A stretch of DNA of 64,000 nucleotides from Chitinophaga sancti (GTDB lineage: Bacteria; Bacteroidota; Bacteroidia; Chitinophagales; Chitinophagaceae), in the NCBI RefSeq assembly GCF_034087045.1, contig NZ_CP139247.1, forward strand, positions 7,776,001 through 7,840,000. Reading direction: 5' to 3'. Made by a program: the position numbers and the translations under genes. Shown here piece by piece: positions 8,036 to 61,166 of this stretch (position 1 is the first letter of the stretch; each line of letters begins with the position of its first letter). The notes below the pieces were generated by a model. That model was given only the letters and a program-made list of their open reading frames with translations. It searched no databases and was not told where the DNA came from.

Positions 8036-8683
8036 ATGGATGAAGTGATTTATAATTTCAGGAATCAGACGTGGCTGTTATCCGCCCACCGCGCTATATT
8101 CTGGAAAGAAGAGCAGGCTTTAATTGTATCAGATCTGCACCTAGGCAAGTCTGCGCATTTCAGAAAAGCAGGCATTGCTGTTCCTGCCAATATCGGGCAT
8201 GATGATCTGTATCGTTTACAAAAACTCATTACTGTTTATCATCCGTTGCAGGTGATTATTGTGGGCGATATGTTTCACAGTAGTCATAACAATGATGTGC
8301 CTTTGTTTAAGTTGTGGAGACAACAGTTTCCGCATATCAAATTTAAGCTGGTGAAGGGGAATCATGATATACTGGCGAAACAGGTGTATGTTGATATTGA
8401 TGTGGAGGTGTATGATGAATTGCAGATTAATGAGATTCATTTTGCGCATGAGCCATGTGAGGAGGGGAATGGTGCTAAGTATACCTTCTCTGGTCACATT
8501 CATCCGGGGGTGGCGGTGTCGGGTACTGGCAGACAGCGTTTGCGTTTACCCTGTTTTTATTTCGGGCGTAATTGCAGTATTCTGCCGGCGTTCGGGCGGT
8601 TTACAGGTTTAGCGATGCTGGATGCAGAGGAGGCGGATGCGGTATTTGTGATTGCTAATAATAGTGTATTAAAGATTGGGTAA
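8036..8683 (+). CDS. pdeM: PdeM, ligase-associated metallophosphoesterase/endonuclease
   Basis: This 215-residue calcineurin-like phosphoesterase is the fourth member of the ligase-associated repair set. Metal-binding motifs are all present: SDLHLG with D33 and H35, GDMFH at 77-81, GNHD at 108-111, and GHIHP at 153-157. The ATG at 8036 is chosen over an in-frame TTG at 8024. It follows the helicase by 24 bp. The last codons (reading NNSVLKIG) and the stop lie in the first unit of a 39-bp tandem array that fills the downstream intergenic region, so the C-terminus has been involved in a local duplication. Confidence 0.93.
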   Translation: MDEVIYNFRNQTWLLSAHRAIFWKEEQALIVSDLHLGKSAHFRKAGIAVPANIGHDDLYRLQKLITVYHPLQVIIVGDMFHSSHNNDVPLFKLWRQQFPHIKFKLVKGNHDILAKQVYVDIDVEVYDELQINEIHFAHEPCEEGNGAKYTFSGHIHPGVAVSGTGRQRLRLPCFYFGRNCSILPAFGRFTGLAMLDAEEADAVFVIANNSVLKIG

Positions 8684-8984
8684 TGATATATCGCCGATAA
8701 TAGTGTTCTAAAGATTGATTAGTGATGTATTACCGATAATAGTGTATTAAAGATTGGGTAATGATATATCGCCGATAATAGTGTTCTAAAGATTGATTAG
8801 TGATGTATTACCGATAATAGTGTATTAAAGATTGGGTAATGATATATTGCCGATAATAGTGTTCTAAGATTGATTAGTGATGTATTGCCGATAATAGTAT
8901 TCTACAGATTGGTTAGTGATGTATTGCCGATAATAGTATTCTACAGATTGGTTAGTGATATATCGCCGATAATAGTGTTCTAAA
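8653..8984 (+). repeat. 39-bp tandem array starting inside the pdeM 3' end
   Basis: About 8.5 near-contiguous copies of a 39-bp unit run from the last codons of pdeM to just before the next gene. Each unit begins CGATAATAGTG. Two variants alternate (one containing GTATTAAAGATTGGG, the other GTTCTAAAGATTGATTAG), which gives a 78-bp higher-order period in the first half; one unit is 38 bp. The first unit encodes the pdeM tail and its double stop TAA TGA. Since 39 is divisible by three, each unit repeats in frame as a DNSVLKI tail followed by two stops. There are no spacers, so this is not a CRISPR array. It accounts for the whole gap between pdeM and the deacetylase gene. Confidence 0.9.
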
Positions 8985-8999
8985 GAATAGTTGAATGTC

Positions 9000-9896
9000 A
9001 TGCTGATTGCTTACGATCCCATATTTGCACACCCGTTACCTGAAGGCCATCGTTTTCCGATGGCAAAATATGAACTGATTCCTGCGCAGCTGTTGCGGGA
9101 AGGGATTGTTACTATTGATCAGTTTCATAAACCCCAACCGGTGAGTGAAGAGACAATTCTTCTGACGCATACCCGTGAATATTGGGATAAATTAAAAAAT
9201 GGGAAGCTGAGTGAGAAGGAAGTGCGTAAGATAGGTTTGCCACAATCACCAGCATTGGTGATGCGGGAAAGGGTGATTTGCCAGGGAACGATTGATTGTG
9301 CATTGCATGCATTGGAGCATGGTATTGGTTTAAATGTGGCGGGTGGTACGCATCATGCGTTTACTGATCATGGAGAAGGGTTTTGTCTGATGAATGATTT
9401 TGCGGTAGCCACGAATTATTTGTTGCATCAAAAGCTGGCTGGATATGTGATGATAATAGATCTGGATGTACATCAGGGGAATGGCACTGCTGCCATATTT
9501 GAGGGGAATGAACGGGTGTTTACATTCAGTATGCATGGGGAGCATAATTATCCCTTTCATAAAGAGACTTCTGTATGGGATGTTGGGTTGCCTGATGGCA
9601 CGACGGATGAGGAATATCTACCTAAGTTAGAGAGTTGTTTAGCTTCTTTATTCGAGAGGGAACGGCCTGATTTTGTATTTTATTTATCCGGGGTAGATAT
9701 ACTGGCGACTGATCGGTATGGGAGGATGAAAGTAACCGAAAATGGATGCCGCTGCAGAGATGAATTGGTGTTAAATACGGTAAAACAATATGGAATTCCC
9801 TGTGCAGTTGCGATGGGAGGAGGGTATTCTCCACAACTGAGGCATATTGTGAATGCGCATTGTAATACATTCAAAACAGCGGCAGCCATCTTCTGA
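9000..9896 (+). CDS. Histone deacetylase family protein
   Basis: This 298-residue protein belongs to the arginase/deacetylase fold, including bacterial HDAC-like, acetoin-utilisation (AcuC) and acetylpolyamine amidohydrolases. Catalytic elements are visible: the His pair in GGTHHAF (118-119), the zinc ligands D156 and H158 in DLDVHQGN, and a later Asp in SGVDIL. It probably removes acyl groups from lysines or small amines in the cytoplasm; the substrate is not predictable. ATG at 9000 is preferred over the in-frame TTG at 8991 because the fold starts MLIAYDPIF. The gene directly follows the 39-bp array behind pdeM. Confidence 0.9.
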   Translation: MLIAYDPIFAHPLPEGHRFPMAKYELIPAQLLREGIVTIDQFHKPQPVSEETILLTHTREYWDKLKNGKLSEKEVRKIGLPQSPALVMRERVICQGTIDCALHALEHGIGLNVAGGTHHAFTDHGEGFCLMNDFAVATNYLLHQKLAGYVMIIDLDVHQGNGTAAIFEGNERVFTFSMHGEHNYPFHKETSVWDVGLPDGTTDEEYLPKLESCLASLFERERPDFVFYLSGVDILATDRYGRMKVTENGCRCRDELVLNTVKQYGIPCAVAMGGGYSPQLRHIVNAHCNTFKTAAAIF

Positions 9897-9994
9897 TTTT
9901 CTCTAAGAACGGCGGTGTTTAGATTTAAAAGGCATTTGATTCATCGAAATAACATGCATGCATTTAATTTTTTCTAAGTGCAGGAAGACAATTG

Positions 9995-10159
9995 ATTCGC
10001 CATAAGTCCGCGGTGTCTGATAACGATTTTCAGAGCATAAAGCAATTTCATTCGCCATAAGTCCCGATGCCAGATAATGATCTTCCAAAGCATAAAGTAA
10101 TTTCATTCGCCATAAGTCCCGATGTCAGATAATGATCTTCCAAAGCATAAAATCTTCTG
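9995..10159 (+). repeat. Three 55-bp tandem repeats covering the cupin gene 3' end
   Basis: Three adjacent 55-bp units start at 9995, 10050 and 10105, each beginning ATTCGCCATAAGTCC. The third contains the last codons and stop (complement of TCA at 10125-10127) of the minus-strand cupin gene. The first two are intergenic copies of that gene end. The middle copy is nearly identical to the genic one; the outermost has diverged. The sequence before 9995 shows no further clear unit. Confidence 0.85.
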
Positions 10160-10421
10160 AAACATTAATAAACTTATGCCACGTTCCTGCCGGTACAAAA
10201 AGATAATCCCCTGAATCAATATCTACGACTCTATCCTTGTATTGTACTTCTGCACATCCTGACATAACGATGTACGTTTCATTTTGTGAATCCGGCTCCT
10301 GTGTGTAAACATCCTCGGGACATAACAATATTACCCTCATTGTATTGTGTTCCCATAGGGTCACGGCTGCTTCTCCACTGTTTTCCAGCTGGCGCAATGC
10401 GTCAACAAATGCGATACGCAT
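10125..10421 (-). CDS. Small cupin-domain protein
   Basis: This is a 98-residue single cupin barrel. The second conserved motif reads GDYLFVPAGTWHKF, with the expected metal-binding His; the first motif is partly degenerate (ETYIVMSGCAEVQYKD). Proteins of this type bind small ligands or metals or act as simple enzymes; no specific role can be assigned. It is probably cytoplasmic. Its 3' end lies in a 55-bp tandem array, and it is convergent with the deacetylase gene. No obvious operon partner: the upstream regulator gene on the same strand ends 188 bp away. Confidence 0.85.
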   Translation of the reverse strand: MRIAFVDALRQLENSGEAAVTLWEHNTMRVILLCPEDVYTQEPDSQNETYIVMSGCAEVQYKDRVVDIDSGDYLFVPAGTWHKFINVSEDFMLWKIII

Positions 10422-10520
10422 AGTTTAATCTTTGAGATTATTAAAAAAAGGGGTTGGAGTAAGTAGCTTTATTTATTCTGATGGTTATTTTGATATTCGT
10501 TTTTAAAGGTTGATTGATTT

Positions 10521-10539
10521 GGAGGCGACATGCGCCTCC
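10521..10539 (-). terminator. Short GC hairpin downstream of the XRE-S24 regulator gene
   Basis: GGAGGCG at 10521-10527 pairs with CGCCTCC at 10533-10539 around a 5-nt loop. There is no strong U-run on the minus strand after it, so termination is uncertain. Confidence 0.35.
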
Positions 10540-10609
10540 CTGTACATAGTCTTCCCAATGCTTAGAAGTCTATGCATTTTATCTTTTGAAAAAGTAATTG
10601 AGGTTGTAA

Positions 10610-11362
10610 TTAATTCCTGGTCTTTTTCTTCAGCATATTTACCTGATCCTGGAGGTGGCTCACCATATCTGCGAGGTGGTTCACACTCATACGGCTTTGT
10701 GGAGCAGCTTTGCTGATCACAGCGTCAGACTGCCAGAGTTCCAGCACTTCATCCATACCTACGGAATAAGGTTCGAACTGAGGGTTATCAGATACCAATG
10801 TCAGTTTTCCTTTTGTGCGGTTACTTTTCAACAAACGTTTATACACAATTCCTTCTCTGCTTGTCACCACCACATAGGCTTCGTTGTTACGAATATCTTC
10901 CCAACCGTCAACTTTGTGGCAAACGATTACAGAACCGGATGGTGTAGGTAACATGGAGTCACCGGCGATTTCGAAAGCTCTGTAACTACCAGCGCCCATC
11001 ATAGGGAGGGTGAAGGTGTTCAGTTCTTCGATGAATTCATCATCGTTATAACCTGCGAGGTAACCAGCGGCAGCTTTTACGGGTACAAACTCTATGGACT
11101 GGCGGCTATTGCCGAGCTTTTGCTGGCGGCGCTTTTCGAGGAAAGTATCTTTTTGGGAACCTACATCACGCCGAAGGAGATCGTCAATAGAAACCCTGAA
11201 CATATCGCTGACCAGTTCCAGCACTTCTGTACGGGGCTCTGCACGCTCTTCTTCATAAGCTCCCAGGAGGGAACGTTTGATCCCTAGTTTATCAGCAAAC
11301 TCCTGCTGCGTCCATCCTTTCTGCTTACGCAGAAACTTTAAATTGCGGCATACAACTGACAT
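10610..11362 (-). CDS. XRE-type LexA/CI-like transcriptional regulator with S24 peptidase domain
   Basis: This 250-residue repressor has an N-terminal XRE helix-turn-helix (about residues 6-62, WTQQEFADKLGIKRSLLGAYE). A C-terminal S24/LexA-type peptidase domain follows, with the Ser in GDSM (S136) and the Lys in YKRLL (K175), a spacing close to LexA. An Ala-Gly pair (99-100) in KAAAGYLAG is a plausible self-cleavage site. A short Lys-rich tail follows. Such proteins repress target genes and may self-cleave after DNA damage, though many Bacteroidota versions are uncharacterised. A palindrome just inside its own promoter (11375-11390) suggests autorepression. Confidence 0.9.
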   Translation of the reverse strand: MSVVCRNLKFLRKQKGWTQQEFADKLGIKRSLLGAYEEERAEPRTEVLELVSDMFRVSIDDLLRRDVGSQKDTFLEKRRQQKLGNSRQSIEFVPVKAAAGYLAGYNDDEFIEELNTFTLPMMGAGSYRAFEIAGDSMLPTPSGSVIVCHKVDGWEDIRNNEAYVVVTSREGIVYKRLLKSNRTKGKLTLVSDNPQFEPYSVGMDEVLELWQSDAVISKAAPQSRMSVNHLADMVSHLQDQVNMLKKKTRN

Positions 11363-11374
11363 AATCTAAATTAT

Positions 11375-11390
11375 TTAGTAGAATTACTAA
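11375..11390. promoter_or_regulatory. Palindromic operator candidate (TTAGTA-N4-TACTAA)
   Basis: TTAGTA at 11375-11380 and TACTAA at 11385-11390 form perfect 6-bp arms around GAAT. On the minus strand the site covers the expected transcription start just after the -7 element of the XRE-S24 gene, the classic place for an autorepressor. An extra half-site TTAGTA lies at 11396-11401, inside the promoter. Confidence 0.6.
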
Positions 11391-11422
11391 CAAATTTAGT
11401 ATATAATTTTTGGAATAACCAA
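11391..11422 (-). promoter_or_regulatory. Promoter of the XRE-S24 regulator gene
   Basis: Read on the minus strand, TAAATTTG (complement of 11391-11398) matches the Bacteroidota -7 consensus TAnnTTTG, with a TTG (complement of 11420-11422) 21 bp upstream as the -33 element. The predicted start is near 11384, giving a short leader to the ATG at 11362. Confidence 0.6.
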
Positions 11423-11443
11423 ATAAATCCGGTGATTCTCACT

Positions 11444-11451
11444 TATTTTTG
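11444..11451 (+). promoter_or_regulatory. Putative -7 promoter element of the four-helix membrane protein gene
   Basis: TATTTTTG matches the Bacteroidota TAnnTTTG element and lies 24 bp before the ATG at 11476. No TTG is seen at the usual -33 spacing. The element is divergent from the XRE-S24 promoter, so that regulator could influence both. Confidence 0.45.
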
Positions 11452-11475
11452 TCAGGAAATCCAACTCAAAGATTT

Positions 11476-11946
11476 ATGTATACACCGTTGCTGATTATTC
11501 ACTCCCTGTTAAGGTGGGCAATTTTACTGGCTGGCATTTGGGCCGTTTACCGTTCATGGAAAGGCGTTAGTGGCAAAACACCTTTTACCGGTGCGGACAA
11601 CAAGGCTGGTTTATTCTTTATGATTTTCTTTGACCTGCAATTGCTGGTAGGCTTGTTATTGTACTTTGTAGCCAGTCCATTTGCAATGAAAGCAATATCC
11701 GAAATGGGTATGGGCGCTGTAATGAAAAGTAGTGTTCGTCGCTTCTATGCGGTAGAACATATCACTATGGCTGTTTTAGCATTCATCCTGGTACACATTG
11801 GTCGTGCAAAAGTAAAGAAAGCACCGACCGATGCATTGAAACATAAGAAGGGACTGATCTTCTTCGGTATTGTTTTGGTGCTGGTATTACTGCTGACACC
11901 ATGGCCTTTCCGCGAAGCGGGTGCTATGAGAGGATGGTTGTATTAA
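11476..11946 (+). CDS. Four-helix integral membrane protein, function unknown
   Basis: This 156-residue protein shows four predicted membrane helices (about 5-25, 47-68, 93-113 and 127-145). Histidines in or near helices (IIHSLLRW, VEHITM, VHIGRAK) recall small cytochrome-b-like membrane proteins, so heme binding is possible but unproven. The ATG at 11476 is preferred over an in-frame TTG at 11449 that would overlap the promoter element. It is divergently arranged from the XRE-S24 regulator and convergent with the SdpI-family gene, sharing a bidirectional terminator with the latter. I do not recognise a specific function. Confidence 0.75.
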   Translation: MYTPLLIIHSLLRWAILLAGIWAVYRSWKGVSGKTPFTGADNKAGLFFMIFFDLQLLVGLLLYFVASPFAMKAISEMGMGAVMKSSVRRFYAVEHITMAVLAFILVHIGRAKVKKAPTDALKHKKGLIFFGIVLVLVLLLTPWPFREAGAMRGWLY

Positions 11947-11971
11947 CCGATACGATTATTCAAAAATACAG

Positions 11972-12003
11972 AGGGGCTGATGTTGTCACATCAGCCCCTT
12001 TTA
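11972..12003. terminator. Bidirectional intrinsic terminator
   Basis: A perfect 12-bp stem (AGGGGCTGATGT at 11972-11983, complement at 11988-11999) with a 4-nt loop is followed by TTTT. It lies between the convergent membrane protein and SdpI-family genes. Confidence 0.85.
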
Positions 12004-12026
12004 CTTTCGTCGTTTTTTCATCATTG

Positions 12027-12701
12027 TCACCCCTTATCCGTATGATATAAACGGAATGAATAGATATACGGCAATGCTGCCAGTATAGCTCCTGTAAAAA
12101 TCAATAAAAATACCCCCGTCATTACGGGTAAAAAGAACCCTCCAACGAATGTGGCGATCCCCGTCCACATCCAAAGATTGCCTGCCATCAGATGCGTTTG
12201 CTGCCAGATTTCGGTGCTTTGCAGTGTCCAAGGTGTACGTACCCCCACAAAATAATTCGGTTGTAATTTGCGTAAATAGATCCCGATCACCGCGATTAAT
12301 ATGCCCACTCCTGTAAATACCCAACGCTCCATTATTAAAGCGCGCCCCTGACTTACCATCCAGATAATTGCGCCGGTGAATATGGCCAGGTATATGTGAA
12401 TGGAGAAGCGGATACGATAGTATTGCTGTCGCTGCAGGCGCTCATTTGCTTCCGGAAAGTCCGCGTGGTCTACGTGAGGGAGGTAGCGGAAGAGGAAGTA
12501 TAACATGAGGTTGGTGAGGAATAGGAAGGTCATGAGTAATAAGAAATCACTTTTGGTACCGACCCGTTCCGGTATGCCTGTGATGCTGTAGTTGTTTGGG
12601 AAGAGGTCTGGCATTGAAGGCCAGATGACTCCCAGGTATGCCATCGGCATCAATAGTAAGAGCAACAATAATAGTTCTTGTCCTAAATCCGTCTTTTTCA
12701 T
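12027..12701 (-). CDS. SdpI-family membrane protein with DUF1648-type region
   Basis: This 224-residue membrane protein has the DUF1648 / SdpI layout: an N-terminal helix (MKKTDLGQELLLLLLLLMPM), a DUF1648-like segment with PDLFPNNYSITGIPERVG, and a C-terminal SdpI domain containing NYFVGVRTPWTLQSTEIW. The founding member, Bacillus SdpI, gives immunity to a killing toxin; most homologues have unknown roles. The frame remains open upstream to 12908, but the extra 69 codons run through a perfect 24-bp inverted repeat and lack conserved sequence, so ATG at 12701 is preferred. About six membrane helices are likely. No toxin gene is recognisable nearby. Confidence 0.88.
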   Translation of the reverse strand: MKKTDLGQELLLLLLLLMPMAYLGVIWPSMPDLFPNNYSITGIPERVGTKSDFLLLMTFLFLTNLMLYFLFRYLPHVDHADFPEANERLQRQQYYRIRFSIHIYLAIFTGAIIWMVSQGRALIMERWVFTGVGILIAVIGIYLRKLQPNYFVGVRTPWTLQSTEIWQQTHLMAGNLWMWTGIATFVGGFFLPVMTGVFLLIFTGAILAALPYIYSFRLYHTDKG

Positions 12702-12825
12702 AACAACATGGATTTGGTGTACATGAAAGGTGACAAATACTATACCGTTGGCATACATATATATTACAATTGTGAAGGGTGAATGGTTTAAATGGTGATT
12801 TGTTTTAATAGCAGATTGTTTTAAT

Positions 12826-12876
12826 TGCCAGACTAAGAACGGATTTGCCAAAGGCAAATCCGTTCTTAGTCTGGCA
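12826..12876. repeat. Perfect 24-bp inverted repeat (hairpin, 3-nt loop)
   Basis: Arms at 12826-12849 and 12853-12876 are perfect complements around AAA; the left arm begins TGCCAGACTAAGAACGG. There is no T-run on either side, so a simple terminator is unlikely. It lies upstream of the SdpI-family gene and directly abuts another inverted repeat. Confidence 0.85.
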
Positions 12877-12877
12877 A

Positions 12878-12974
12878 GCGGATTGTCGCGCCGAGGCATC
12901 GGCGACAATCCGCAGGAAAGGACAAAACCGCAGTAAGCGCGACAATCCGCCGGAAAAGAACTAACCGCGATAAG
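12878..12974. repeat. GC-rich inverted and direct repeat cluster
   Basis: GCGGATTGTCGC (12878-12889) pairs with GCGACAATCCGC (12902-12913); an inner CGCCGA/TCGGCG pair overlaps. GCGACAATCCGC recurs at 12939-12950, starting an imperfect second copy of a 37-bp direct repeat that runs to about 12974. Base composition is richer in G+C than the flanks. It resembles REP-type intergenic elements, but no transposase is nearby. Confidence 0.7.
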
Positions 12975-13039
12975 GGGCGAAATACAGAAATGGCTGGAAT
13001 TCCAGGGTTTGTTATTAAGTTGTTATTATGCTAACTATT

Positions 13040-13065
13040 TTAGTATTTACTAATAATATTAGTAA
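13040..13065. promoter_or_regulatory. Second TTAGTA/TACTAA palindrome
   Basis: TTAGTA-TT-TACTAA (13040-13053), followed by TTAGTAA at 13059-13065, uses the same arms as the operator candidate before the XRE-S24 gene, with a shorter spacer. The region is AT-rich and intergenic, between the SdpI-family gene start and the aspartate kinase terminator, so chance remains possible. Confidence 0.35.
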
Positions 13066-13100
13066 TTTTACCTCCGAGGCTTTCCCTCACAATCACCATA

Positions 13101-13138
13101 AAAAAACAGGTCGTCCCCTTTATTGGAGACGACCTGTT
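13101..13138 (-). terminator. Intrinsic terminator of the aspartate kinase gene
   Basis: AACAGGTCGTC (13105-13115) pairs perfectly with GACGACCTGTT (13128-13138). The A-run at 13101-13106 becomes a U-run on the minus strand, 23 bp after the stop. Confidence 0.85.
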
Positions 13139-13160
13139 CCTTTATAATTCCCTTTTAAGA

Positions 13161-15626: not shown

Positions 15627-15675
15627 GATGGATTTCCGTGCTATTGATTTTTGTATCAGTTGATCTGGTCCTGTT

Positions 15676-31859: not shown

Positions 31860-31995
31860 GAGCCTTTCCGGCAAGCCTTAGCTGGTCACTCCAGGAAGGC
31901 CAGGCTAATTTTTCAAAGAAGGCTACGCTGGTTATTCCATCATACCTACGCTGGTCACTCTTTCAAACCTACTTTGGTCAATCCATCAAACCTAC
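31860..31995 (+). repeat. Degenerate 23-bp tandem repeats between two convergent gene ends
   Basis: At least three 23-bp units are clear from about 31924 to 31992, with consensus CCTACGCTGGTCA...; more diverged ones precede them (for example TTAGCTGGTCACTCC near 31880). The last unit runs into the stop codon (complement of 31992-31994) of the minus-strand adenosyltransferase. A related GCTGGTCA also occurs in the last codons of the plus-strand ABC gene, so both flanking gene ends share the repeat motif. Confidence 0.65.
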
Positions 31996-32561
31996 GCTCC
32001 CACCCTCGGCGTCCACTTAATCTCCTCCACCTTCAACCGGTGGCCTATCCATCTTGCTAATACGAAAAGATGATCGCTCAGCCGGTTTAAATATTGTAGT
32101 ACCAATGGTGCTATAAACTCCTCATTCTCCTGTACCCTTACCACTAAGCGCTCTGCCCTCCGGCATACACAACGGGCTACATGCGCTGTAGACACCGCCA
32201 CATGCCCACCGGGCAGAATAAATGATTTCATCTCCGGCAGTTCCTCATTCATGGCATCAATGCTGGCTTCCAGCACCTGTACATCTTTCTCATACAGATC
32301 CGGAATACGCATTTTAATATCTTTTTCAGGATCACAGGCCAGTGAAGCTCCCACTGTAAACAAACGATCCTGTATTTCGCGCAGAAAAGCGACCATATTT
32401 CCATCAAAAGAGATATAATCACTCACCAGCCCAATATAAGAATTGAGCTCGTCTACCGTGCCATAAGCATCAATGCGAAGGCTGCTCTTGGAAACTTTAG
32501 TACCCCCGATCAGGGAGGTCTGTCCTTTGTCGCCGGTTTTGGTGTAAATCTTAAATGACAT
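31992..32561 (-). CDS. Cob(I)yrinic acid a,c-diamide adenosyltransferase (PduO type)
   Basis: This 189-residue enzyme transfers the adenosyl group of ATP to cobalt in cob(I)alamin, giving adenosylcobalamin. The N-terminal ATP-binding region reads YTKTGDKGQTSLIGG and includes RIDAYGTVDELNS. The C-terminal helix pair contains RCVCRRAERLVV and YLNRLSDHLFVLAR, matching the PduO/MMAB family. It is followed downstream by the repeat array and preceded by a LolD-type ABC gene that ends 10 bp before its start, so the two are likely cotranscribed. Confidence 0.95.
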   Translation of the reverse strand: MSFKIYTKTGDKGQTSLIGGTKVSKSSLRIDAYGTVDELNSYIGLVSDYISFDGNMVAFLREIQDRLFTVGASLACDPEKDIKMRIPDLYEKDVQVLEASIDAMNEELPEMKSFILPGGHVAVSTAHVARCVCRRAERLVVRVQENEEFIAPLVLQYLNRLSDHLFVLARWIGHRLKVEEIKWTPRVGA

Positions 32562-52796: not shown

Positions 52797-53741
52797 ATGT
52801 TCGATCCTTCCAAATTACAAATGCTAGAAAACCGGCTGGTAAAGGTTTATCGCCATATTGGTAAAATCGCCCGCCGCCAGAACATCACCTGTTACAGGGT
52901 GTATGATGACGATATCAATGAATTTCCATTCAGTGTGGATCGCTATGACGATCATATCTATGTGGCAGAATACGATCGCCCGCATGGTATGGATGAAGAG
53001 ACCCATGAGCATTGGCTGGATAGCTCTCTGGAAGTAGTAGGCAAGGTACTGGATGTGCCATTGAACAAGATATGGGTGAAGCAAAGACAACGGAAAGCCA
53101 GCAGACAGGAACAGTATGAGAAGCTTTCTTTTGAAAGCCATGAGGTGGTGGTGCATGAAGCAGGGCTGAAATTCAAAGTCAATCTTTCTGATTACCTGGA
53201 TACAGGTCTCTTTTTGGATCACCGTATTACAAGGGGCATGGTCCGGGAGAGTGCGAAGGATATGAAAGTGCTGAACCTCTTTTGTTATACAGGTTCCTTT
53301 TCTGTGTATGCAGCTGCAGGTGGTGCCAGCGAAGTAGTGTCTGTAGATTTGTCTAAGACCTACCTGGCATGGGCGGAAGAGAATATGCAGCTGAATGATC
53401 TGAAAGGTAATTTTCAGTTTGTACATGCGGATGTATTGCAATACCTGGATACATTGCCTGCTGATTATTTCGATCTGGTGGTGCTTGATCCTCCTACTTT
53501 TTCCAATAGCAAGCGCATGAAGGAGTTCCTCGATATACAGAGAGATCATGTGTCGATATTGAATAAGGTATTGCATGCGACCAAACCCGGGGGAGTGGTG
53601 TATTTTAGTAATAACTATCGTAAGTTTCAGCTGGATACGGAACAGATTCAGGCGGGTACGATCAAGGATATTACCGGGCAGACAATGCCGTTTGATTTTC
53701 AGCAAAAGCTGATTAGAAAATGTTATAAGATCACCAGATAA
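52797..53741 (+). CDS. Class I SAM-dependent methyltransferase, RlmK-like
   Basis: This 314-residue protein resembles the RlmK half of the E. coli RlmKL fusion, which makes m7G2069 in 23S rRNA, but is a stand-alone protein. Motif I reads VLNLFCYTGSFSVYAAAGGA, the acidic motif VVSVDLSKTYL, and the catalytic motif LDPPTFSNS. An N-terminal RNA-binding-like part includes YRVYDDDINEFPFSVDRY. Its last 13 codons and stop are the first unit of a 54-bp tandem array that continues to the next gene. RNA position is inferred from homology only. Confidence 0.88.
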   Translation: MFDPSKLQMLENRLVKVYRHIGKIARRQNITCYRVYDDDINEFPFSVDRYDDHIYVAEYDRPHGMDEETHEHWLDSSLEVVGKVLDVPLNKIWVKQRQRKASRQEQYEKLSFESHEVVVHEAGLKFKVNLSDYLDTGLFLDHRITRGMVRESAKDMKVLNLFCYTGSFSVYAAAGGASEVVSVDLSKTYLAWAEENMQLNDLKGNFQFVHADVLQYLDTLPADYFDLVVLDPPTFSNSKRMKEFLDIQRDHVSILNKVLHATKPGGVVYFSNNYRKFQLDTEQIQAGTIKDITGQTMPFDFQQKLIRKCYKITR

Positions 53742-53965
53742 GAATATTGGTTTCAGCAGAAGCTGATCAGAAAATGTTATAAGATCACCAGATGAGAATA
53801 TTGGTTTCAGCAGAAGCTGATCAGAAAATATTATAAGATCAACAGATGAGAATATTGGTTTCAGCAGAAGCTGATCAGAAAATGTTATAAGATCACCAGA
53901 TAAGAATATTGGTTTCAGCAGAAGCTGATCAGAAAATATTATAAGATCAACAGATGAGAATATTG
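53700..53965 (+). repeat. 54-bp tandem array spanning a stop-start gene junction
   Basis: Nearly five contiguous copies of a 54-bp unit start at 53700, 53754, 53808, 53862 and 53916. The first encodes the end of the methyltransferase, with stop TAA at 53739-53741. The last carries the start ATG of the glycosyltransferase (53954). Units contain either AGATAAGAATATTGG or AGATGAGAATATTGG; in the latter, TGA and ATG overlap, so each such unit has both a stop and a start. Units two and three therefore open 14-codon frames. Intergenic copies are almost identical to each other. There are no spacers. Confidence 0.93.
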
Positions 53966-54994
53966 GTAGCCGGAGATTTTGAAGCTGATTATAATCGCAC
54001 GAGAATTATCCTGGATGGTTTACGTACCATTCCTGCTGTGTCACTTTCTTTTTACAATTATAAGGAGCAAAGTAAATGGAATTTCGCAGCCCTGCGCAAA
54101 GCGTGTGGGGATGCGGATGTGATCTTTTTGCCTGCATTTACACACCAGGATGTGGCGATAATTAAGATGCTTTCCGGCAAGCCTGTGTTGTTTGATCCAT
54201 TGATCTCAAGGTATCTGTCTAAGGTGTTTGATTATAAGAAGGTGAACAGGTATTCTCCGAGAGCTTTGAAAAATTATCTGAAGGATAAGATCTCTATGCG
54301 TATGGCGGACCTTGTTATTTGCGATACAGAGGGGCACCGGGATTATTATCATAGGACTTTCAGCATTCCTTTGCGGAAATTGTATGTAGTGCCTGTGGGG
54401 GTGAATACGGATGAATTTCCACCGGCACCTGCTATTGGATTACGGGATACTTTTGTAGTGGGGTTCTATGGTGGTTTTATTCCTTTGCAGGGCACACGAA
54501 TGATTGTGGAGGCGGCGAATGTTTTAAAAGATCATACAGATATTCATTTCCGTTTGATCGGAAATGGATTTGAGTATAAAGTAATACAGCAATTAGTAGC
54601 GCAATATCAATTGAATAATATTAGTTTACCTGGTTGGGTAGCTTATGATCAATTGGCAGGGGAGATGAATAATTTTGATATTTGTTTGGGGATATTTGGA
54701 GAGACGCAGAAAGCGGATTTAGTGATACCGAATAAGATATTTCATTATGCTGCGTTGAGGAAGGCGATCATTAGTAAAGAGTCTCCTGCGATAAAGGAGG
54801 TGTTTGAAGATGGGAAAAGTATTTTATTGACAGCAAATACACCGGAGGCGATTGCAGAAAAGATTCTCTTATTGAAGGAGAATGTGGTGCTGAGAGAGCA
54901 ATTGGCGCAAGGTGCATATGAGGCTATTTGCACGAAGTATAATCATCGTGCAATTGGGCAGCTGGTATATAATCTGGCGCTGGAAATTAAGTAG
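53954..54994 (+). CDS. GT4-type glycosyltransferase
   Basis: This 346-residue protein has the GT-B layout of group 1 (GT4) glycosyltransferases. The N-terminal domain starts MRILVAGDFEAD, a linker contains LYVVPVGVNTDEFPP, and the C-terminal domain includes FVVGFYGGFIPLQG, the LIGNGFEYK element, and a late acidic region, SKESPAIKEVFEDGKSILL. It should transfer a sugar from a nucleotide donor to a glycan or lipid. Donor and acceptor are unknown. Its start lies in the last unit of the 54-bp array and its stop in the first unit of the 108-111-bp array. Base composition is lower in G+C than in the neighbouring housekeeping genes. Confidence 0.87.
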   Translation: MRILVAGDFEADYNRTRIILDGLRTIPAVSLSFYNYKEQSKWNFAALRKACGDADVIFLPAFTHQDVAIIKMLSGKPVLFDPLISRYLSKVFDYKKVNRYSPRALKNYLKDKISMRMADLVICDTEGHRDYYHRTFSIPLRKLYVVPVGVNTDEFPPAPAIGLRDTFVVGFYGGFIPLQGTRMIVEAANVLKDHTDIHFRLIGNGFEYKVIQQLVAQYQLNNISLPGWVAYDQLAGEMNNFDICLGIFGETQKADLVIPNKIFHYAALRKAIISKESPAIKEVFEDGKSILLTANTPEAIAEKILLLKENVVLREQLAQGAYEAICTKYNHRAIGQLVYNLALEIK

Positions 54995-55301
54995 GCGGGA
55001 TTACAGGTAAGCCATTACATTATCAATAAGATCCATTATCCCCTTTACATTAAAATGCATTATACCTGCGTAGGCTGCATTTTTCCGCCGCTGGAATTAA
55101 GTAGACGTAATTACAGCAGCCATTACATTAACAATAAGATTCATTATCCCCTTTTCACTAAGATGCATTATACCTGCGTAGGCTGCATTTTTCCGGGGCT
55201 GGAAATTAAGTAGACGTAATTACAGCAGCCATTACATTATCAATAAGATCCATTATCCCCTTTACACTAAATTGCATTATGCCTGCGTAGGATGCATTTT
55301 A
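54980..55301. repeat. Three 108-111-bp tandem repeats covering the ends of two convergent genes
   Basis: Units start at 54980 (111 bp), 55091 (108 bp) and 55199 (about 103 bp). Each begins with a copy of the last codons and stop of the plus-strand glycosyltransferase (CTGGAAATTAAGTAG or CTGGAATTAAGTAG) and ends with a copy of the last codons and stop of the minus-strand glycosyltransferase. The first unit holds the true end of the former gene, the third the true end of the latter. This looks like amplification of one short convergent junction. Confidence 0.92.
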
Positions 55302-56398
55302 TGTGCTAATTTTTCAACAGCATTCAGATCAATCCGGGTGCCCATTTCATGCAGCAATTCCAGGTAAGAACGTGTAATACAATTGAGGCTATGCCTTTCA
55401 GTTGTGTAGGCAAATGCGCATCTGGCCACTGACTCTCTTTTCAAAGGTTCTTCCAGTAACGACTGTATACCGGCAGCCAGTTGTTCCGGTTGATGTACTT
55501 CGCAGGAAACTGCTCTCCCACCCTGTACCAGATCTGACAAGCCACCTGCATTTGTAGAAACTACAGGTACACGATACATAAAGGCATCCAGCACACTACT
55601 ACCTAATCCTTCCTGTTCTGAACTCATGGTGAAGATGTCTAACACCGAGAAGATATCCTCCACATTATCATAAAAGCCCATCAGTTTATACACATCTTCC
55701 AATCCGTATTCAGCTATTTTATCACGCATTTGTTGTTCCAGCTCCCCTTTACCAAAGTGCAGGAATACAAAATCACGACGTACAGTTGCCAGTTCACGGA
55801 TGGCTTCGATCATAGTGAGTGGATCTTTGTGTTGTACAAGTGCAGCCGTGGTACCGATCAGGTGTAATGACGGATCGACGCCTGCATCAGTGAGTATCCT
55901 TTCTGCCCTGGACTTATCCAGTTGCTTTGCCATAATAGCACTGGATATCAAACGGACATCTTTAGCACCAAAGTCTGTCAATATACGTTTGATGGCGTGG
56001 CTGATAGCAACGACCTGGTCAGTGAGTTTATATTTGAGCAAGGTCATCTTTCCGTGGGGAACAAAATCCACGCGACGGGTAAAAATGATCTTAGCCCTGT
56101 GAAAGGGCTTGGAAAGAATTGCATACGTGAGAATATGGGAAGATTGTGCATGAAGTATATCATAACGGCTTCCCTTGAAGATCAGGAAGAAGAGCACGCC
56201 AAAAATATTTGAAAATGATTGGGTTTTAAAGCCCTTCTCGTTTGCCTTTTTTTCCAGCGGGTAGTTTTTTCTACAAAGTAGTTCCACATTAATACCGGCC
56301 TCTTTGAAACCGGACATGGTATACATAGTTTGCCGTTCTCCACCACGCCATCCACGCTCGAAGTTTAGTTCAAGAATCATTACAGACTTGCTATGCAT
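55277..56398 (-). CDS. GT4-type glycosyltransferase
   Basis: This 373-residue GT-B enzyme has the group 1 pattern: N-terminal LELNFERGWRGGERQTMYTM with the Gly-Gly-Glu donor loop, a middle KIIFTRRVDFVPHG, and C-terminal HLIGTTAALVQHKDPLTMIEA with the FTMSSEQEGLGSSVLDAFMYRVPVVST E-x7-E element. It probably acts in surface glycan or lipopolysaccharide synthesis, with unknown specificity. It is convergent with the other glycosyltransferase, and its last codons are part of the 108-bp repeats between them. The intergenic 56399-56584 upstream is AT-rich with no recognised motif. Confidence 0.93.
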   Translation of the reverse strand: MHSKSVMILELNFERGWRGGERQTMYTMSGFKEAGINVELLCRKNYPLEKKANEKGFKTQSFSNIFGVLFFLIFKGSRYDILHAQSSHILTYAILSKPFHRAKIIFTRRVDFVPHGKMTLLKYKLTDQVVAISHAIKRILTDFGAKDVRLISSAIMAKQLDKSRAERILTDAGVDPSLHLIGTTAALVQHKDPLTMIEAIRELATVRRDFVFLHFGKGELEQQMRDKIAEYGLEDVYKLMGFYDNVEDIFSVLDIFTMSSEQEGLGSSVLDAFMYRVPVVSTNAGGLSDLVQGGRAVSCEVHQPEQLAAGIQSLLEEPLKRESVARCAFAYTTERHSLNCITRSYLELLHEMGTRIDLNAVEKLAHKMHPTQA

Positions 56399-56584
56399 AG
56401 GTTTCCCAGGTTTTTAGTTCTTACACAATAGGTTGCATTAACAAAAGGTTAGATGCATAAATGATGCAAAGTTTAATTGGGAAGGTACACATTTAACAAT
56501 AAATAACAGTTGAGGTAAGAATTCCCCTATTCATATTATGTATTAATTAACTATAAATCAATTATATATCCTTTAAAAATAATA

Positions 56585-58393
56585 CTAGTTGATGCTTTTA
56601 TTCTTTTCCAGGTTTTTTACCAGCTTGATAAATTCTTTTCTGTAGTTACCCGGATCGTCTCCCAATGCTCTTTTTGCAATTTCTAATACCATCTTGCTAT
56701 CTCCCTCCCCTTTATAGGCAGAATGTCTTAAAAGCATGCCACATAATGCAACGGATGTTGCAAAACGGAAATCGACGTCTGCATCCTGGAAGTCGATACA
56801 GGAATTGTGTATCTGGTGCCAGATGGTGTGGAAGGAGGAGTCTGTTGGGAGTTGGTAGTTGATTCGGATTTGGGCTAATAGGGAGTCGTGGGGTTTAAAT
56901 ACGACATCGGTGTCGTGAAGAGGGTGGGTGTAGGGATTGGGGAGTTCAGTACCAGGCACTATTTCATACATAGCAATCGCACAATGCCCTGCCCCTACAA
57001 TCCCTCCGGAAACACGCCCTCCGGTAGTATCTGCATTGCTGATCACTTTATTTTCATACCCAATCAGGCGGTAAGACTTGACCATAGCAGGGTTAAAGTA
57101 AACTTCGGCCTGTACATCTTTGGCTACAGTAAATAAGGTACCTCCAAATTCTTTAGCGAATATTTTACTGGCTTCTTCCAGGTTGTCGATATAGGCAAAG
57201 TTACCATTGCCTTTACTGGACAGGGTTTGGAGTTTGCTATCTTTATAATCACGCATACCGAACCCCAGGCAGGTGAGTAGTACCCCACTCTCCTTTTTGC
57301 TGACGATGAGTTGTTCCATATCCAGATCGCTGGTCTGACCTACATTGAAATCACCATCAGTAGCCATGATGACGCGGTTGTTGCCATCTTTGATAAAGTT
57401 GTCCTGTGCCAGCTGGTAAGCGAGTTTGATAGCCGCTTCGCCGGCAGTAGCGCCGCCAGCACTGAGATTGTCGATTGCATTGAGGATTTTATCTTTCTGA
57501 TCGCCAGGGGTACTTGGCAGAATGATGCCTGGGGCACCAGCGTAAGCAACGATGGCAACATGGTCGTTCTTTCTTAAGTTATTGACAAGGATGCGAAAGG
57601 CAGCTTGTAGTAATGGTAGTTTATTGGCGGGAGCCATAGAGCCGGAGGCATCGATCAGGAATACGAGATTGCTGGGAGGCAGACTATCTGTATCCATGAC
57701 TTCACCCCTTACCACAATTTGCAGTAACCGGTGTTCAGGTTTCCAGGGGCAGGTGGCGTAACTACTGTAGACAGCGAGGGTCTGGCCTTTTTTCGGAGGA
57801 GGATAATGGTAGTTGAAGTAGTTGAGCATTTCTTCAATGCGCACGGCATCGACAGGAATCTTTTCTTTGAGGTGGATGAAACGGCGGATATTGCTATAGG
57901 CAGCTCTGTCTACATCTACAGCGAAGGTAGAATGGCTACGGATGAGGGTTTTCATGAATTGATTTTCGTAGAGGGCGCCGTAAGTTTCATCAAAGAAGAC
58001 ACGGGTGCCCATGCTGGTGTTGCCATAGTTTGGGTTGGAGCCGCTGGAAGAGCGGTTGCGGGCTATGGCCTTGGCTTTGGCGATGGCGTCCTGGGGGTTG
58101 TCGAGGGCGTCGAGTTGAACGAGGATGCGGTTATACACACCTATAGGGATTCTTTTAGGACGGTATTTGTCCAGTTGAAAGAGTAATATAGCGTCCTGAG
58201 AAGGCACCGCAATCCGAAAAAGACCGTACTGATTGGTAGCGACTTTTGCGGTATCATTGATCACTGAGATTAATACACCGGGTAAGGGATTGTGTGAAAT
58301 ACTGTCCTCTACAGCCCCGGTGATGTAAATTTTCTGTGCATTCGCAGGTACAAGGAATAGCAGGCTGCCGAGCAGCATGAGAAGCTTTACCAT
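56585..58393 (-). CDS. YfbK-like von Willebrand factor A domain protein
   Basis: This 602-residue protein has a signal peptide (about 1-19), a carboxypeptidase-regulatory-like beta-sandwich domain (about 21-95), and the YfbK-type N-terminal region (TFAVDVDRAAYSNIRRFI). A VWA domain (about 240-410) carries a complete MIDAS (DASGSM, D248/S250/S252; later ATDGDFNVG). A YfbK-type C-terminal domain follows. It is probably periplasmic or surface-exposed and binds proteins through a metal. Function is not established in the family. No operon partner is obvious; the next gene upstream is terminated by a strong hairpin. Confidence 0.92.
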   Translation of the reverse strand: MVKLLMLLGSLLFLVPANAQKIYITGAVEDSISHNPLPGVLISVINDTAKVATNQYGLFRIAVPSQDAILLFQLDKYRPKRIPIGVYNRILVQLDALDNPQDAIAKAKAIARNRSSSGSNPNYGNTSMGTRVFFDETYGALYENQFMKTLIRSHSTFAVDVDRAAYSNIRRFIHLKEKIPVDAVRIEEMLNYFNYHYPPPKKGQTLAVYSSYATCPWKPEHRLLQIVVRGEVMDTDSLPPSNLVFLIDASGSMAPANKLPLLQAAFRILVNNLRKNDHVAIVAYAGAPGIILPSTPGDQKDKILNAIDNLSAGGATAGEAAIKLAYQLAQDNFIKDGNNRVIMATDGDFNVGQTSDLDMEQLIVSKKESGVLLTCLGFGMRDYKDSKLQTLSSKGNGNFAYIDNLEEASKIFAKEFGGTLFTVAKDVQAEVYFNPAMVKSYRLIGYENKVISNADTTGGRVSGGIVGAGHCAIAMYEIVPGTELPNPYTHPLHDTDVVFKPHDSLLAQIRINYQLPTDSSFHTIWHQIHNSCIDFQDADVDFRFATSVALCGMLLRHSAYKGEGDSKMVLEIAKRALGDDPGNYRKEFIKLVKNLEKNKSIN

Positions 58394-58422
58394 GGGGGTC
58401 TTGCATCAGTTAGTGTAATATA

Positions 58423-58466
58423 AGCAAAAAATCTCTTCTGCTTTTTAGGCAGAAGAGATTTTTGCT
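58423..58466 (-). terminator. Intrinsic terminator downstream of hpt
   Basis: AGCAAAAAATCTCTTCTGC (58423-58441) pairs with the complementary arm at 58449-58466 (one bulged A). On the minus strand it is about 70 bp after the hpt stop. Confidence 0.75.
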
Positions 58467-58538
58467 TTATTATTTGGCCTGCGGCTGCAAACAAATGCAC
58501 TCTTTTCTCTGGCTGGCGCCTGGAGCAATCAGATTACC

Positions 58539-59081
58539 TTAGGCATTTTCTACTAACTGATAAATTTCCGGTAAGTTCCTTCCTAATCCATCATAGTCTA
58601 AACCATAACCAAGTAGGAACTTGTTAGGCACACTAAAACCTAAATAATCAATCCTGATCGGGTACTTCATCGCTTCTGGTTTAGTGAGCAGAGAAGTCAC
58701 CAACAGTCTCTTTGGTTGCTGGTGTTCTAACTGTGGGAGGAACTGACTCAATGTCTTTCCTGTATCAACAATATCTTCCAGGATTACTACCGTACGGCCA
58801 AACAGATCTTCATCCAGACCAATTGCCTGCACTACATTTCCAGTCGACTTCATGCCCTTGTAAGAAGCGAGTTTGATAAACGAGATCTCCGCTTCTATGG
58901 TCAGGTACTTAAAAATATCAGCGGCAAACATAAAGGAGCCGTTGAGGATGGCAATGAATAATGGTTTTTCACCTTTCAGGTCATTGCTGATAGCAGCTGC
59001 CAGTTCCTGAATACGCGCCTGCAGCTTATCTGCGTTGATGTAAGGTGTGAATTGCTTGTCATGAACCTGTATAACAGACAT
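58539..59081 (-). CDS. hpt: Hypoxanthine phosphoribosyltransferase
   Basis: This 180-residue purine-salvage enzyme joins hypoxanthine (and often guanine) to PRPP, making IMP or GMP. The PRPP-binding motif EDIVDTGKT is at residues 102-110, with the base-specificity region DYLGFSVPNKFLLGYGLDYD near the C-terminus. It lies 22 bp downstream of the glucosaminidase gene on the same strand, so the two are probably cotranscribed. Length is normal. Confidence 0.95.
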   Translation of the reverse strand: MSVIQVHDKQFTPYINADKLQARIQELAAAISNDLKGEKPLFIAILNGSFMFAADIFKYLTIEAEISFIKLASYKGMKSTGNVVQAIGLDEDLFGRTVVILEDIVDTGKTLSQFLPQLEHQQPKRLLVTSLLTKPEAMKYPIRIDYLGFSVPNKFLLGYGLDYDGLGRNLPEIYQLVENA

Positions 59082-59103
59082 GTGTTTCCTTATTTACGTT
59101 TGT

Positions 59104-60990
59104 TTAAATTTTTCCTACTAAAAGCCTTTGACCGATTTTAATGTCGTAGGCTTCCAGGTGATTCCATTCCCGTAACTGTTCTACGGTTACGTTAAAGCGT
59201 TTGGCTATGCCATATAAAGTTTCTTTGGAAGTGACGTCGTGGTATAACAAATTACCCACCTGGATAGTTCCCTCAGGTAATCCGTTGGATGTAGGAGGAG
59301 TTGGGGTATTTGATGTAGTGGCTATTGGCAGAGCAGGTGACTGCGTGGCTGGTGCCTCTGTTGGTGTAGCCGGTGTTGGTGCTACAGGAGCTGTTGGTGT
59401 AGCCGGTGTTGGTGCTGGTGTAGTAGCAGGTGCAGTTGCTACAGGAGCTGCTGGAGCAGTAACCGTACCTGTTGCTACCGGTGGTGCAGGATTGTAGGTT
59501 GGTGTTGATGCCTGAGCAGTTGGTGCAGAGGCAGATGTACCTACGCTTGCAGATGCATTTACTACAGGAGCTGTTGGCGCTGTAGCGGTAACTGTACCTG
59601 TTGCTACCGGTGGTGCAGGATTGTAGGTAGGTGTTGTTTTAGCGGGTATTGATGCAGATGCACCTACGCTTGCAGATGCATTTACTACTGGTGTTGTTGG
59701 CGCTGTAGCAGTAACTGTACCTGTTGCAGCCGGTGCCGGATTATAAGTTGGTGTTGTTTTAGTAGCTGTTGCCGCAGGTTTTGCAGCAGTGCTTGTACCT
59801 GCTGGTGTCACCTCTCCTATCTTCTTCAAATCATCCACCATCCCATCAGGCAATTTATTTACCTGCTGCTGTTTTGATTGTGCCGGCTGTTGCTGAGCCT
59901 GTTGCTGTTGCGCCAGCTGTTGCTGACGTTCCATTTCCGTCTTCACATCATCCACTATCTGCTTTGGATTCAGATCTCCTTCAGTCGGATCTTCTACCAG
60001 TGCATTCTTCGCCAGTTCAGGTTTTACGCTTGCAAATCCCTGCAGCGCCAGTTTCTGACCTGCTGCCGGCTCCTCACCTTCCTTCATTTTGTTACGACGG
60101 CGTAACCAACGTAACTGTATACCTTCTGCCTGGGAAATATCGTACATGGTTTCACCCTGTTTCACTATGTGAAAATCATTCTTCCCTGACTTTCCTTTTT
60201 TCTCCAAAAAGATATAATTACTCTTTGGCAAAGGATTATCATTTTCCAGGTCATTATACTTCACGAGATTTCGCAGCTTCACATCCTTTTCACTCGCCAG
60301 TTGAATCAATGCAGTACCTGCCTGTGCATACATTACTTTACGACCATTGATTTCAAATATGCCAGTTGGAATAGGTTTATCAGCAGCTGCTGTATTGCCT
60401 TTTCCGGTAGTAGTGGTGGAAGGTTTTGTGGTGGTGGAAACGGAAGTTGATGGCGTAGACCTTGGTATCAGGCCCTCTCCTTCCTTTGTATATTGCTGTA
60501 AGTTATAATCTTCAATAACCTTAATCAGCTGCTGGGGATATGTTTTGCTTGTTGCATAACCCGCCTGTTTCAAACCATATGCCCATGATTTATAATCTTC
60601 CAGCTGAAAAGAGAAGAGAAAACTATAGCGTGGGTTATTTTTCAGGAAGTCAGAGTGATCCTTGTAAGAATCAGCCGCTGTGGTGTATTTACGGAAGCAT
60701 TCCTGGCGGGCGTCGTCATCATAATTCACGGTAGCGCCTGTCCAGTTGTTTTTACACTTGATACCAAAGTGATTATTGGAATTCTGTACCAGCCAGCTAT
60801 TGCCTGACTGTGTTTCCAGCACCCCCTGTGCAAGGGTGATGGAAGCAGGAATTCCACTCCGCTTCATTTCATCGATCGCGATATCCTTATACATCGCAAT
60901 GTACTGCGGTGTCGACGTGGTCTGCGCTTTCACCAGTGGCATGCAGCCAATTAGAAAACTGACCGTGAAAAAGGCTCTCCTTAGTTGCAT
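59104..60990 (-). CDS. Exported N-acetylglucosaminidase with LysM domains and a Pro/Ala/Thr repeat linker
   Basis: This 628-residue cell-wall hydrolase has a signal peptide (about 1-22). A glucosaminidase (GH73-like) domain follows (about 28-165), with a probable catalytic Glu in QGVLETQSG (E59). A LysM-like domain lies at about 273-316 (FHIVKQGETMYDISQA), then a long low-complexity Ala/Thr/Pro linker (about 395-575) with three TPTYNPAP units, and a C-terminal LysM (about 583-628, VTSKETLYGIAKRFNVTVEQL). It should cut peptidoglycan glycan strands and bind them through LysM. The linker repeats make it prone to length variation. hpt follows 22 bp after the stop. Confidence 0.92.
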   Translation of the reverse strand: MQLRRAFFTVSFLIGCMPLVKAQTTSTPQYIAMYKDIAIDEMKRSGIPASITLAQGVLETQSGNSWLVQNSNNHFGIKCKNNWTGATVNYDDDARQECFRKYTTAADSYKDHSDFLKNNPRYSFLFSFQLEDYKSWAYGLKQAGYATSKTYPQQLIKVIEDYNLQQYTKEGEGLIPRSTPSTSVSTTTKPSTTTTGKGNTAAADKPIPTGIFEINGRKVMYAQAGTALIQLASEKDVKLRNLVKYNDLENDNPLPKSNYIFLEKKGKSGKNDFHIVKQGETMYDISQAEGIQLRWLRRRNKMKEGEEPAAGQKLALQGFASVKPELAKNALVEDPTEGDLNPKQIVDDVKTEMERQQQLAQQQQAQQQPAQSKQQQVNKLPDGMVDDLKKIGEVTPAGTSTAAKPAATATKTTPTYNPAPAATGTVTATAPTTPVVNASASVGASASIPAKTTPTYNPAPPVATGTVTATAPTAPVVNASASVGTSASAPTAQASTPTYNPAPPVATGTVTAPAAPVATAPATTPAPTPATPTAPVAPTPATPTEAPATQSPALPIATTSNTPTPPTSNGLPEGTIQVGNLLYHDVTSKETLYGIAKRFNVTVEQLREWNHLEAYDIKIGQRLLVGKI

Positions 60991-61056
60991 GTATATGAAT
61001 TTAATGGGTTAGTCTTTGTTTTAACTGCTTTTTTTCTGCTTGCTGGTAAACTGAAA

Positions 61057-61166
61057 TTCAGGAATGCAATATTCTCGTCAACTACATTTCCTGCATATCA
61101 GTAATCCAAATTTCAGGAATGCAATATTCACCTCAACTCCTTTTCCTGATCATCAGCAATCCGTCT
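61057..61166. repeat. Two 55-bp tandem repeats at the O-methyltransferase 3' end
   Basis: Two 55-bp units start at 61057 and 61112 with TTCAGGAATGCAATATTC, followed by a partial third. The second contains the stop (complement of 61133-61135) and final codons of the minus-strand O-methyltransferase. The first is an intergenic copy that still encodes a similar ending and stop. Confidence 0.8.

Follow-up and report, generated by a model that had tools for sequence, protein, structure and literature searches.

Tandem arrays at gene junctions of a Chitinophaga clade: probable minisatellites born in place by ordinary duplication and filtered by selection

The window analyzed here is the whole stretch of 64,000 nucleotides at positions 7776001-7840000 of the Chitinophaga sancti genome (a single contig of 8.32 Mb, termed G000 herein), in which short tandem arrays lie between neighboring genes and mostly run over a gene end. 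A preliminary description of this DNA had listed six arrays with their unit lengths, each taking in the stop of a gene. Tandem Repeats Finder (TRF) recovered all six (sites 1 to 6 in Table 1), and each covers the stop of at least one plausible gene. The list was thus sound as to the existence of its members and less so as to its completeness and evenness, since site 3 is weak (it reaches the stop by 7 bp) and a seventh non-coding array, which overlaps no stop, had been left out. The TRF scores of the window arrays (96-525) put their existence beyond chance, and the units are arranged head-to-tail, within the range of minisatellites and variable-number tandem repeat (VNTR) loci. Genes were called with our own hexamer script, with no curated annotation, and the start positions are the least reliable part of these calls.

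The arrays differ in how they are placed relative to the genes. At site 1, the array begins ~30 bp before the end of gene 8024-8683 (+) and stops 13 bp short of the next called start, and at site 2 it takes in the last 27 bp of gene 10125-10421 (-), whose product we take to be cupin-like. Site 3 is the weakest case, in that only 7 bp of the 3' end of gene 31992-32561 (-) are included and the stop of the plus-strand gene (31854) lies outside the TRF array. The unit at site 4 combines the last ~45 bp of gene 52797-53741 (+) with the first ~14 bp of gene 53954-54994 (+). The array at site 5 spans both convergent stops, at 54994 (gene 53954-54994, +) and at 55277 (gene 55277-56398, -), and site 6 covers the terminal 30 bp of gene 61133-61777 (-).

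Table 1. Positions of tandem arrays in the window and at selected places in other sampled stretches (each numbered from its own first letter)
Feature	Stretch	Position	Strand	TRF period x copies	Remark
Site 1	Window	8651..8986	+	39 bp x 8.6	Also 78 x 4.2
Site 2	Window	9995..10151	-	55 bp x 2.9	
Site 3	Window	31923..31998	-	23 bp x 3.3	77% match, degenerate
Site 4	Window	53697..53967	+	54 bp x 5.0	
Site 5	Window	54978..55300	+	109 bp x 3.0	
Site 6	Window	61057..61162	-	55 bp x 1.9	
Seventh non-coding array	Window	62667..62839	No strand	71 bp x 2.4	Overlaps no gene end
Larger array	L068	430-1781		156 bp x 8.7	
Larger array	L115	11432-12340		327 bp x 2.8	
11/22/33-bp class	L058	13093-13207			
11/22/33-bp class	L059	11873-11977			
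11/22/33-bp class	L064	10947-11006			
11/22/33-bp class	L075	17792-17898			
11/22/33-bp class	L082	3995-4046			
11/22/33-bp class	L113	15114-15209			
11/22/33-bp class	L049	16104-16157			
11/22/33-bp class	L074	10591-10642			

The nearest named records of one window protein belong to [Flexibacter] sp. ATCC 35208, Chitinophaga silvisoli, C. tropicalis, an uncultured Chitinophaga, and C. skermanii. The part of the window that aligns with a sister genome (G014, a single contig of 8.67 Mb) shares 95.57% identity with it, and C. silvisoli (G041, draft) is 85.77% identical to the window; the [Flexibacter] sp. ATCC 35208 record (G040, draft) is 99.28% identical to G014. L-numbers denote sampled stretches or loci, among which L053 is, like G041, from C. 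silvisoli. Counterparts of the window arrays were found at sites 1, 2, 3, and 5. G014 and G040 agree at site 1 (39 bp x 6.4), site 3 (46 bp x 3.2), and site 5 (103 x 2.4), and G041 has no array at any of the three; at site 5, its gene calls overlap by 14 bp. At site 2, G014 has 56 bp x 4.9 and G041 has 43 x 2.1, and the sequence of the draft G040 is a stretch of N. The seventh array has a counterpart of 72 bp x 2.5 in G014, and none was found in G041; at site 6, no array was found in G014, G040, or G041. Arrays of this kind are hard to assemble, as the run of N in G040 illustrates, but the identity of unit and copy number at sites 1, 3, and 5 in the assemblies G014 and G040, together with the presence of arrays in the single-contig genomes G000 and G014 with units that differ between the species, makes an assembly artefact extremely improbable. 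In the orthologue of gene 31992-32561 in G014 and G040 (L118 and L117), a TGA was seen inside the aligned frame, and the sequence of the junction suggests that its stop may have been moved by array turnover.

The origin of an array can be followed at site 4, where the joint between the two genes is a bare 4-bp ATGA overlap without an array in G014, G040, and L052. The window carries here five 54-bp copies of the ATGA junction stretch, with few substitutions, by which the overlap is broken, and its unit matches the array-free junction of G014. In C. silvisoli (L053/G041), this joint holds an array unlike that of the window (TRF period 61, with sub-units of ~15 bp by eye), which resembles its own version of the 3' end of the upstream gene. 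At L103, junctions 7, 9, and 11 measure 3, -4, and -4 bp in C. silvisoli; arrays are present at the first two in both G000 and G014 and at junction 11 only in G014 (a gap of 2 in G000 versus an array and a gap of 186 in G014), with gaps of up to 473 bp. Filled and empty joints likewise face each other in relatives at L093 junctions 9 and 10 and at L115 junction 4, and at L093 junction 9 the upstream gene ends in different codons in the array-bearing G000 and the array-free G014. The arrays therefore arise in place, at several junctions, by tandem duplication of the joint itself; the independent local duplication proposed earlier for the window is borne out by these relatives, whose bare junctions match the units.

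Turnover was assessed at 198 orthologous junctions of G000 and G014 (period of at least 13, score of at least 50, in stretches picked for having G000 arrays). Arrays were present in both genomes at 24 junctions, in G000 only at 12, in G014 only at 12, and in neither at 150, so that at 24 of the 48 array junctions the sister genome has none. Unit lengths at 21 shared array junctions were similar at 13, in about a multiple relation at 5 (78/39, 23/46, 67/201, 28/57, and 47/91), and unrelated at 3, and copy numbers differ between these separate species-level genomes. At 12 of the 13 junctions with units of similar length, copies were more alike within than between genomes, a comparison that is indicative, since identity was measured differently within and between genomes. 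The likeness of copies within a genome and the differences in length point to repeated gain and loss or conversion. Between G014 and G040, array junctions differed at 3 of the 47 junctions compared, one of the three being the run of N in the draft; at two junctions the differences look like whole units (88 bp, or 2 x 44 bp, and 72 bp, or 1 x 72 bp), but because draft G040 has this run of N at site 2 we regard these steps as unsafe and draw no proof from them.

The TRF survey of G000 covered 72 stretches (1.484 Mb including the window, 1.42 Mb without it) and reported 124 arrays. The long non-coding class (TRF period 23-330, score of at least 90, not intragenic) comprised 45 of them, with periods from 23 to 327 bp; 7 lie in the window, and the remaining 38 (~27 per Mb) come from the 1.42 Mb outside it. 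Some of the sampled sequence here and below is N and is still counted in the base totals. Long non-coding arrays were rarer in the few relatives sampled outside the clade of G000 and G014: the single-contig genomes G007, G008, and G001 had 0, 0, and 2 in 140 kb each, and the 38 arrays of G000 outside the window stand against these 2 in 0.42 Mb of the genus (p = 0.004; the Fisher tests in this work treat arrays as independent, although arrays cluster). With G004 (1 in 80 kb) and G015 (0 in 100 kb) added, the five genomes have 3 arrays in 0.60 Mb, a comparison that leaves out C. tropicalis (0 arrays) and C. skermanii (2 arrays), each sampled at one 21-kb locus. Counts were 31 in 340 kb for G014, 3 in 80 kb for G040, and 6 in 320 kb for C. 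silvisoli. For these three genomes, stretches had been selected because they matched the window or G000 arrays, and the densities are therefore not independent estimates. Escherichia coli K-12, with positions set against the annotation, had 0 non-coding and 2 intragenic arrays in 150 kb. These counts support a genome-wide habit of junction arrays common to G000 and its sister G014, as had been surmised from the window. Arrays are unevenly spread in G000, with 10 in the 680 kb sampled from 0-4 Mb and 35 (7 in the window) in the 804 kb sampled from 4-8.3 Mb, and some single 20-kb stretches hold 3 to 5 long non-coding arrays. The larger arrays of L068 and L115 are possibly different in nature from the junction arrays.

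A mobile repeat family that inserts at junctions, in the manner of mycobacterial interspersed repetitive units (MIRU) or small dispersed repeats, would be expected to recur across loci. When the non-coding units were compared by BLAST with the 1.48 Mb of G000, 10 off-array matches were obtained, of which 7 came from one 11/33-bp family and 3 lay beside two arrays, in keeping with the earlier statement that the units are unrelated. The 11/33-bp family is dispersed (L049, L064, L074, and L075), but it is not among the six sites. The site 1 sequence was found at a single place in the genome, and units match the host junction in relatives. This family excepted, the units of the long arrays do not form one family across loci, as MIRU units at different loci presumably do; for the long arrays, a dispersed family has no support in the 1.48 Mb compared, and we give mobile insertion a practically negligible probability. 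A second class of arrays was also observed, with periods of 11, 22, or 33 bp (about one, two, or three helical turns), and Table 1 lists a selection of 8 such places, 6 of which are divergent spacers; these arrays look more like phased protein-binding sites than like junction minisatellites.

The arrays might instead be functional 3' elements kept by selection, such as terminators, mRNA-stabilizing ends, or a MIRU-like relay for translation coupling, an explanation that would suit the 24 junctions with arrays in both G000 and G014 and the different arrays that two lineages have at site 4. However, the units fold no better than ordinary 3' junctions: the best-strand fold z had a mean of -0.53 for units and -1.42 for control 3' junctions (43 each; p = 0.07 in the opposite direction), and z was below -2 in 3 of the 43 units (0.07) versus 15 of the 43 controls (0.35), which gives a hairpin element no support. 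A relay from stop to start was not above shuffled spacers in 29 codirectional arrays, with a mean progress of 0.096 versus 0.073 for ATG only and of 0.329 versus 0.310 for ATG/GTG/TTG, and a MIRU-like coupling relay likewise found no support. As the units are also unrelated and the sister genome is empty at half of the array junctions, a functional role of this kind is very improbable.

The preliminary description had further suggested a mechanism linked to stops or transcription ends and had proposed a control with shuffled positions. Such mutational targeting would mean that duplications start preferentially at these places, for example where RNA polymerase or ribosomes leave, and that the arrays mark termination sites. 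Three null models were used to examine the overlap with stops. Under random placement over the genome, which corresponds to a crude form of the shuffled control, an enrichment was indeed obtained: a stop was covered by 18 of 41 arrays (period 23-120) versus 8.4 expected and, without the window, by 13 of 38 (p = 0.037). Junctions, however, are short and mostly flanked by at least one stop. When each unit was placed within its own junction, with the single array collapsed in the spacer length, the excess was gone in G000 outside the window (13 of 35 on stops, 11.5 expected, p = 0.33); the window itself (6 of 7, 3.6 expected, p = 0.03) is an extreme sample. The third null takes the C. silvisoli gap as the ancestral length and uses the 30 of 42 G000 arrays and 25 of 30 G014 arrays that have an array-free C. 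silvisoli counterpart. Here, stops were covered at expectation in both genomes (13 of 30 versus 14.2 in G000; 13 of 25 versus 12.5 in G014), and overlaps with start codons were far below it (2 versus 9.5 in G000, p = 6e-5; 1 versus 9.4 in G014, with 0 of 50,000 draws as low). With units touching a start forbidden, stops were covered by 17 of 40 arrays versus 17.5 expected in G000 and by 17 of 30 versus 14.6 in G014 (p = 0.19).

We rank the C. silvisoli-gap null highest of the three in our judgement, because the collapse of a single array can leave older decayed copies in the spacer, by which the own-junction null may understate the expected stop overlap. Convergent junctions, which offer 3' ends only, had no excess on stops outside the window (4 of 6 versus 4.0 expected in G000; 4 of 6 versus 4.2 in G014), with 3 of 3 versus 1.8 expected inside it, and 43 arrays with a period of at least 15 are intragenic in the 1.48 Mb sample. 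Stop targeting is thus favored by the genome-wide null, with the own-junction null split between the genomes and the C. silvisoli-gap null not in favor, and it was rejected as a candidate; we consider it improbable. Our conclusion is that there is no strong targeting of stops and that arrays avoid 5' ends, the avoidance being significant under both the own-junction and the C. silvisoli-gap nulls.

Several points weigh against this conclusion. In the own-junction null, G014 arrays lay on stops more often than expected (17 of 30 versus 10.7, p = 0.006), and so did those private to G014 (6 of 10 versus 2.2, p = 0.006). For arrays private to either single-contig genome, set into the sister's gap, stops were covered by 9 of 17 versus 7.1 expected (p = 0.18) and starts by 3 versus 5.1 of 17 (p = 0.10), so that the 5' avoidance is not significant there and a small 3' preference remains compatible with this subset. 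The G000 and G014 sets of the ancestral-gap null share many junctions and are hence not independent; in the draft G041, an array collapsed to one copy would pass as ancestral, and in the draft G040 the site 2 array reads as N. The 5' avoidance may also stem in part from start calls misplaced by our gene caller.

Arrays inside genes and the type of junction bear on what is retained. The period was divisible by 3 in 38 of the 43 intragenic arrays, versus 18 of the 45 long non-coding arrays. Arrays were carried by 10 of 22 convergent, 34 of 132 codirectional, and 2 of 21 divergent junctions (convergent versus divergent, p = 0.016). Both biases, in frame and in junction type, are consistent with the removal of duplications that disrupt a reading frame or a promoter. 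Junctions that are tight in C. silvisoli (at most 20 bp) were neither enriched nor depleted, with 6 of 34 codirectional array junctions versus 27 of 98 others (p = 0.36). In the window, in-frame repeats of 15 bp and 123 bp lie at 59359-59762 inside gene 59104-60990, whose orthologues in G014 and L052 are unlike in length and identity, though both genomes are nearly identical.

We consider it likely that the junction arrays result from ordinary tandem duplication and turnover, filtered by selection and unusually frequent in this clade, and that they are minisatellites born in place. A tandem duplication would copy part of a junction, namely a gene end, the spacer, and sometimes the start of the next gene, with slippage or recombination as the presumed copying step, and copies may then be gained, lost, and homogenized by the same processes. 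A duplication of any length across the 3' end of a gene would keep that gene intact in the first copy and would hence survive; one within a gene would survive mostly when in frame; and one over a promoter or start would tend to be lost. The overlap with stops would then reflect geometry plus selection, as duplications there would do little harm, and we infer that selection is the cause of the 5' avoidance. The process would have gone unusually far in this clade and separated neighboring genes that adjoin or overlap in relatives. The array density of the clade may reflect a higher duplication rate or weaker selection, both of which are candidates.

A stronger version would be a heritable bias in the clade of G000 and G014 that, like a mutator, favors tandem duplications of ~25-150 bp. 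It would fill junctions and dismantle overlapping gene pairs, probably through a clade-shared change in replication or repair. Overlapping and presumably translation-coupled pairs would thereby be separated by some 200-400 bp. Array-filled junctions make up 36 of the 198 compared in each of G000 and G014, in stretches chosen for having arrays. A missing repair gene was considered as the cause of the density, and four families were tried: mutS was found in 14 of 14, recJ in 6 of 6, and xseA in 6 of 6 genomes searched, with none missing, and sbcD was above the cut-off in 4 of 14 (G000, G007, G010, and G020), with G014 and the rest below, so that its occurrence among these relatives is patchy. 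Because sbcD passes in G000 but not in G014, it does not follow the array density, and the candidate was dropped. We regard a mutator of this kind as a tentative and rather unlikely extension of ordinary duplication filtered by selection. If true, the clade-specific duplication bias would be a natural mutator for a seldom-measured class of mutation.

Matched empty and filled junctions in close genome pairs offer a view of minisatellite birth in bacteria and of the cost of gene spacing. They also expose a pitfall: elements that lie on stop codons need a null at the level of the junction, since a shuffle over the whole genome can create a false link. A literature search on titles and the openings of abstracts found no account of such junction arrays in Chitinophaga.

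The arrays are a known kind of element in an unusual number. They share with bacterial minisatellites and VNTR loci units of tens of base pairs, non-integer copy numbers, and sequences unrelated between loci, and they differ in that there are ~27 non-coding arrays (unit of at least 23 bp) per Mb, born from tight junctions at many places in one clade. The published systems are compared here on excerpts of the papers cited. In alignments of E. coli, minisatellites account for 2-4% of variable loci (PMC2884548). In Beggiatoaceae, intergenic TAACTGA direct repeats overlap the upstream stop in 13 open reading frames (ORFs), which is ascribed to stops encoded by the repeat, and they form one heptamer family, mostly oriented towards start codons (PMC4679880); the likeness to the arrays described here lies in intergenic direct repeats, some of them over stops. 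MIRU occupy close gene junctions, including a spacing of -4 nt, and are apparently mobile, are found at many loci, and couple an ORF to the next gene (PMC12548453, PMC2734929). Their location at close gene junctions is shared with the Chitinophaga arrays, whereas the Chitinophaga units are unrelated, derive from the host junction, and were negative in the relay test. Both MIRU and TAACTGA are particular repeat sequences, in contrast to the unrelated local duplications of Chitinophaga.

In these excerpts, the closest precedent is the rnc-fpg1 junction of the Mycobacterium tuberculosis complex (VNTR3239/ETR-F), which consists of 279-358 bp of direct repeats whose copy number varies among strains (PMC2734929). 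There, 40 bp separate the stop from the array and a link to expression is reported; among the other mycobacteria tabulated, the junction is 1-54 bp long (54 bp in M. leprae, 20 bp or less in the rest; PMC2734929). Here, too, a short junction has grown into repeats within one clade, at one locus in the M. tuberculosis complex and at many junctions in Chitinophaga.

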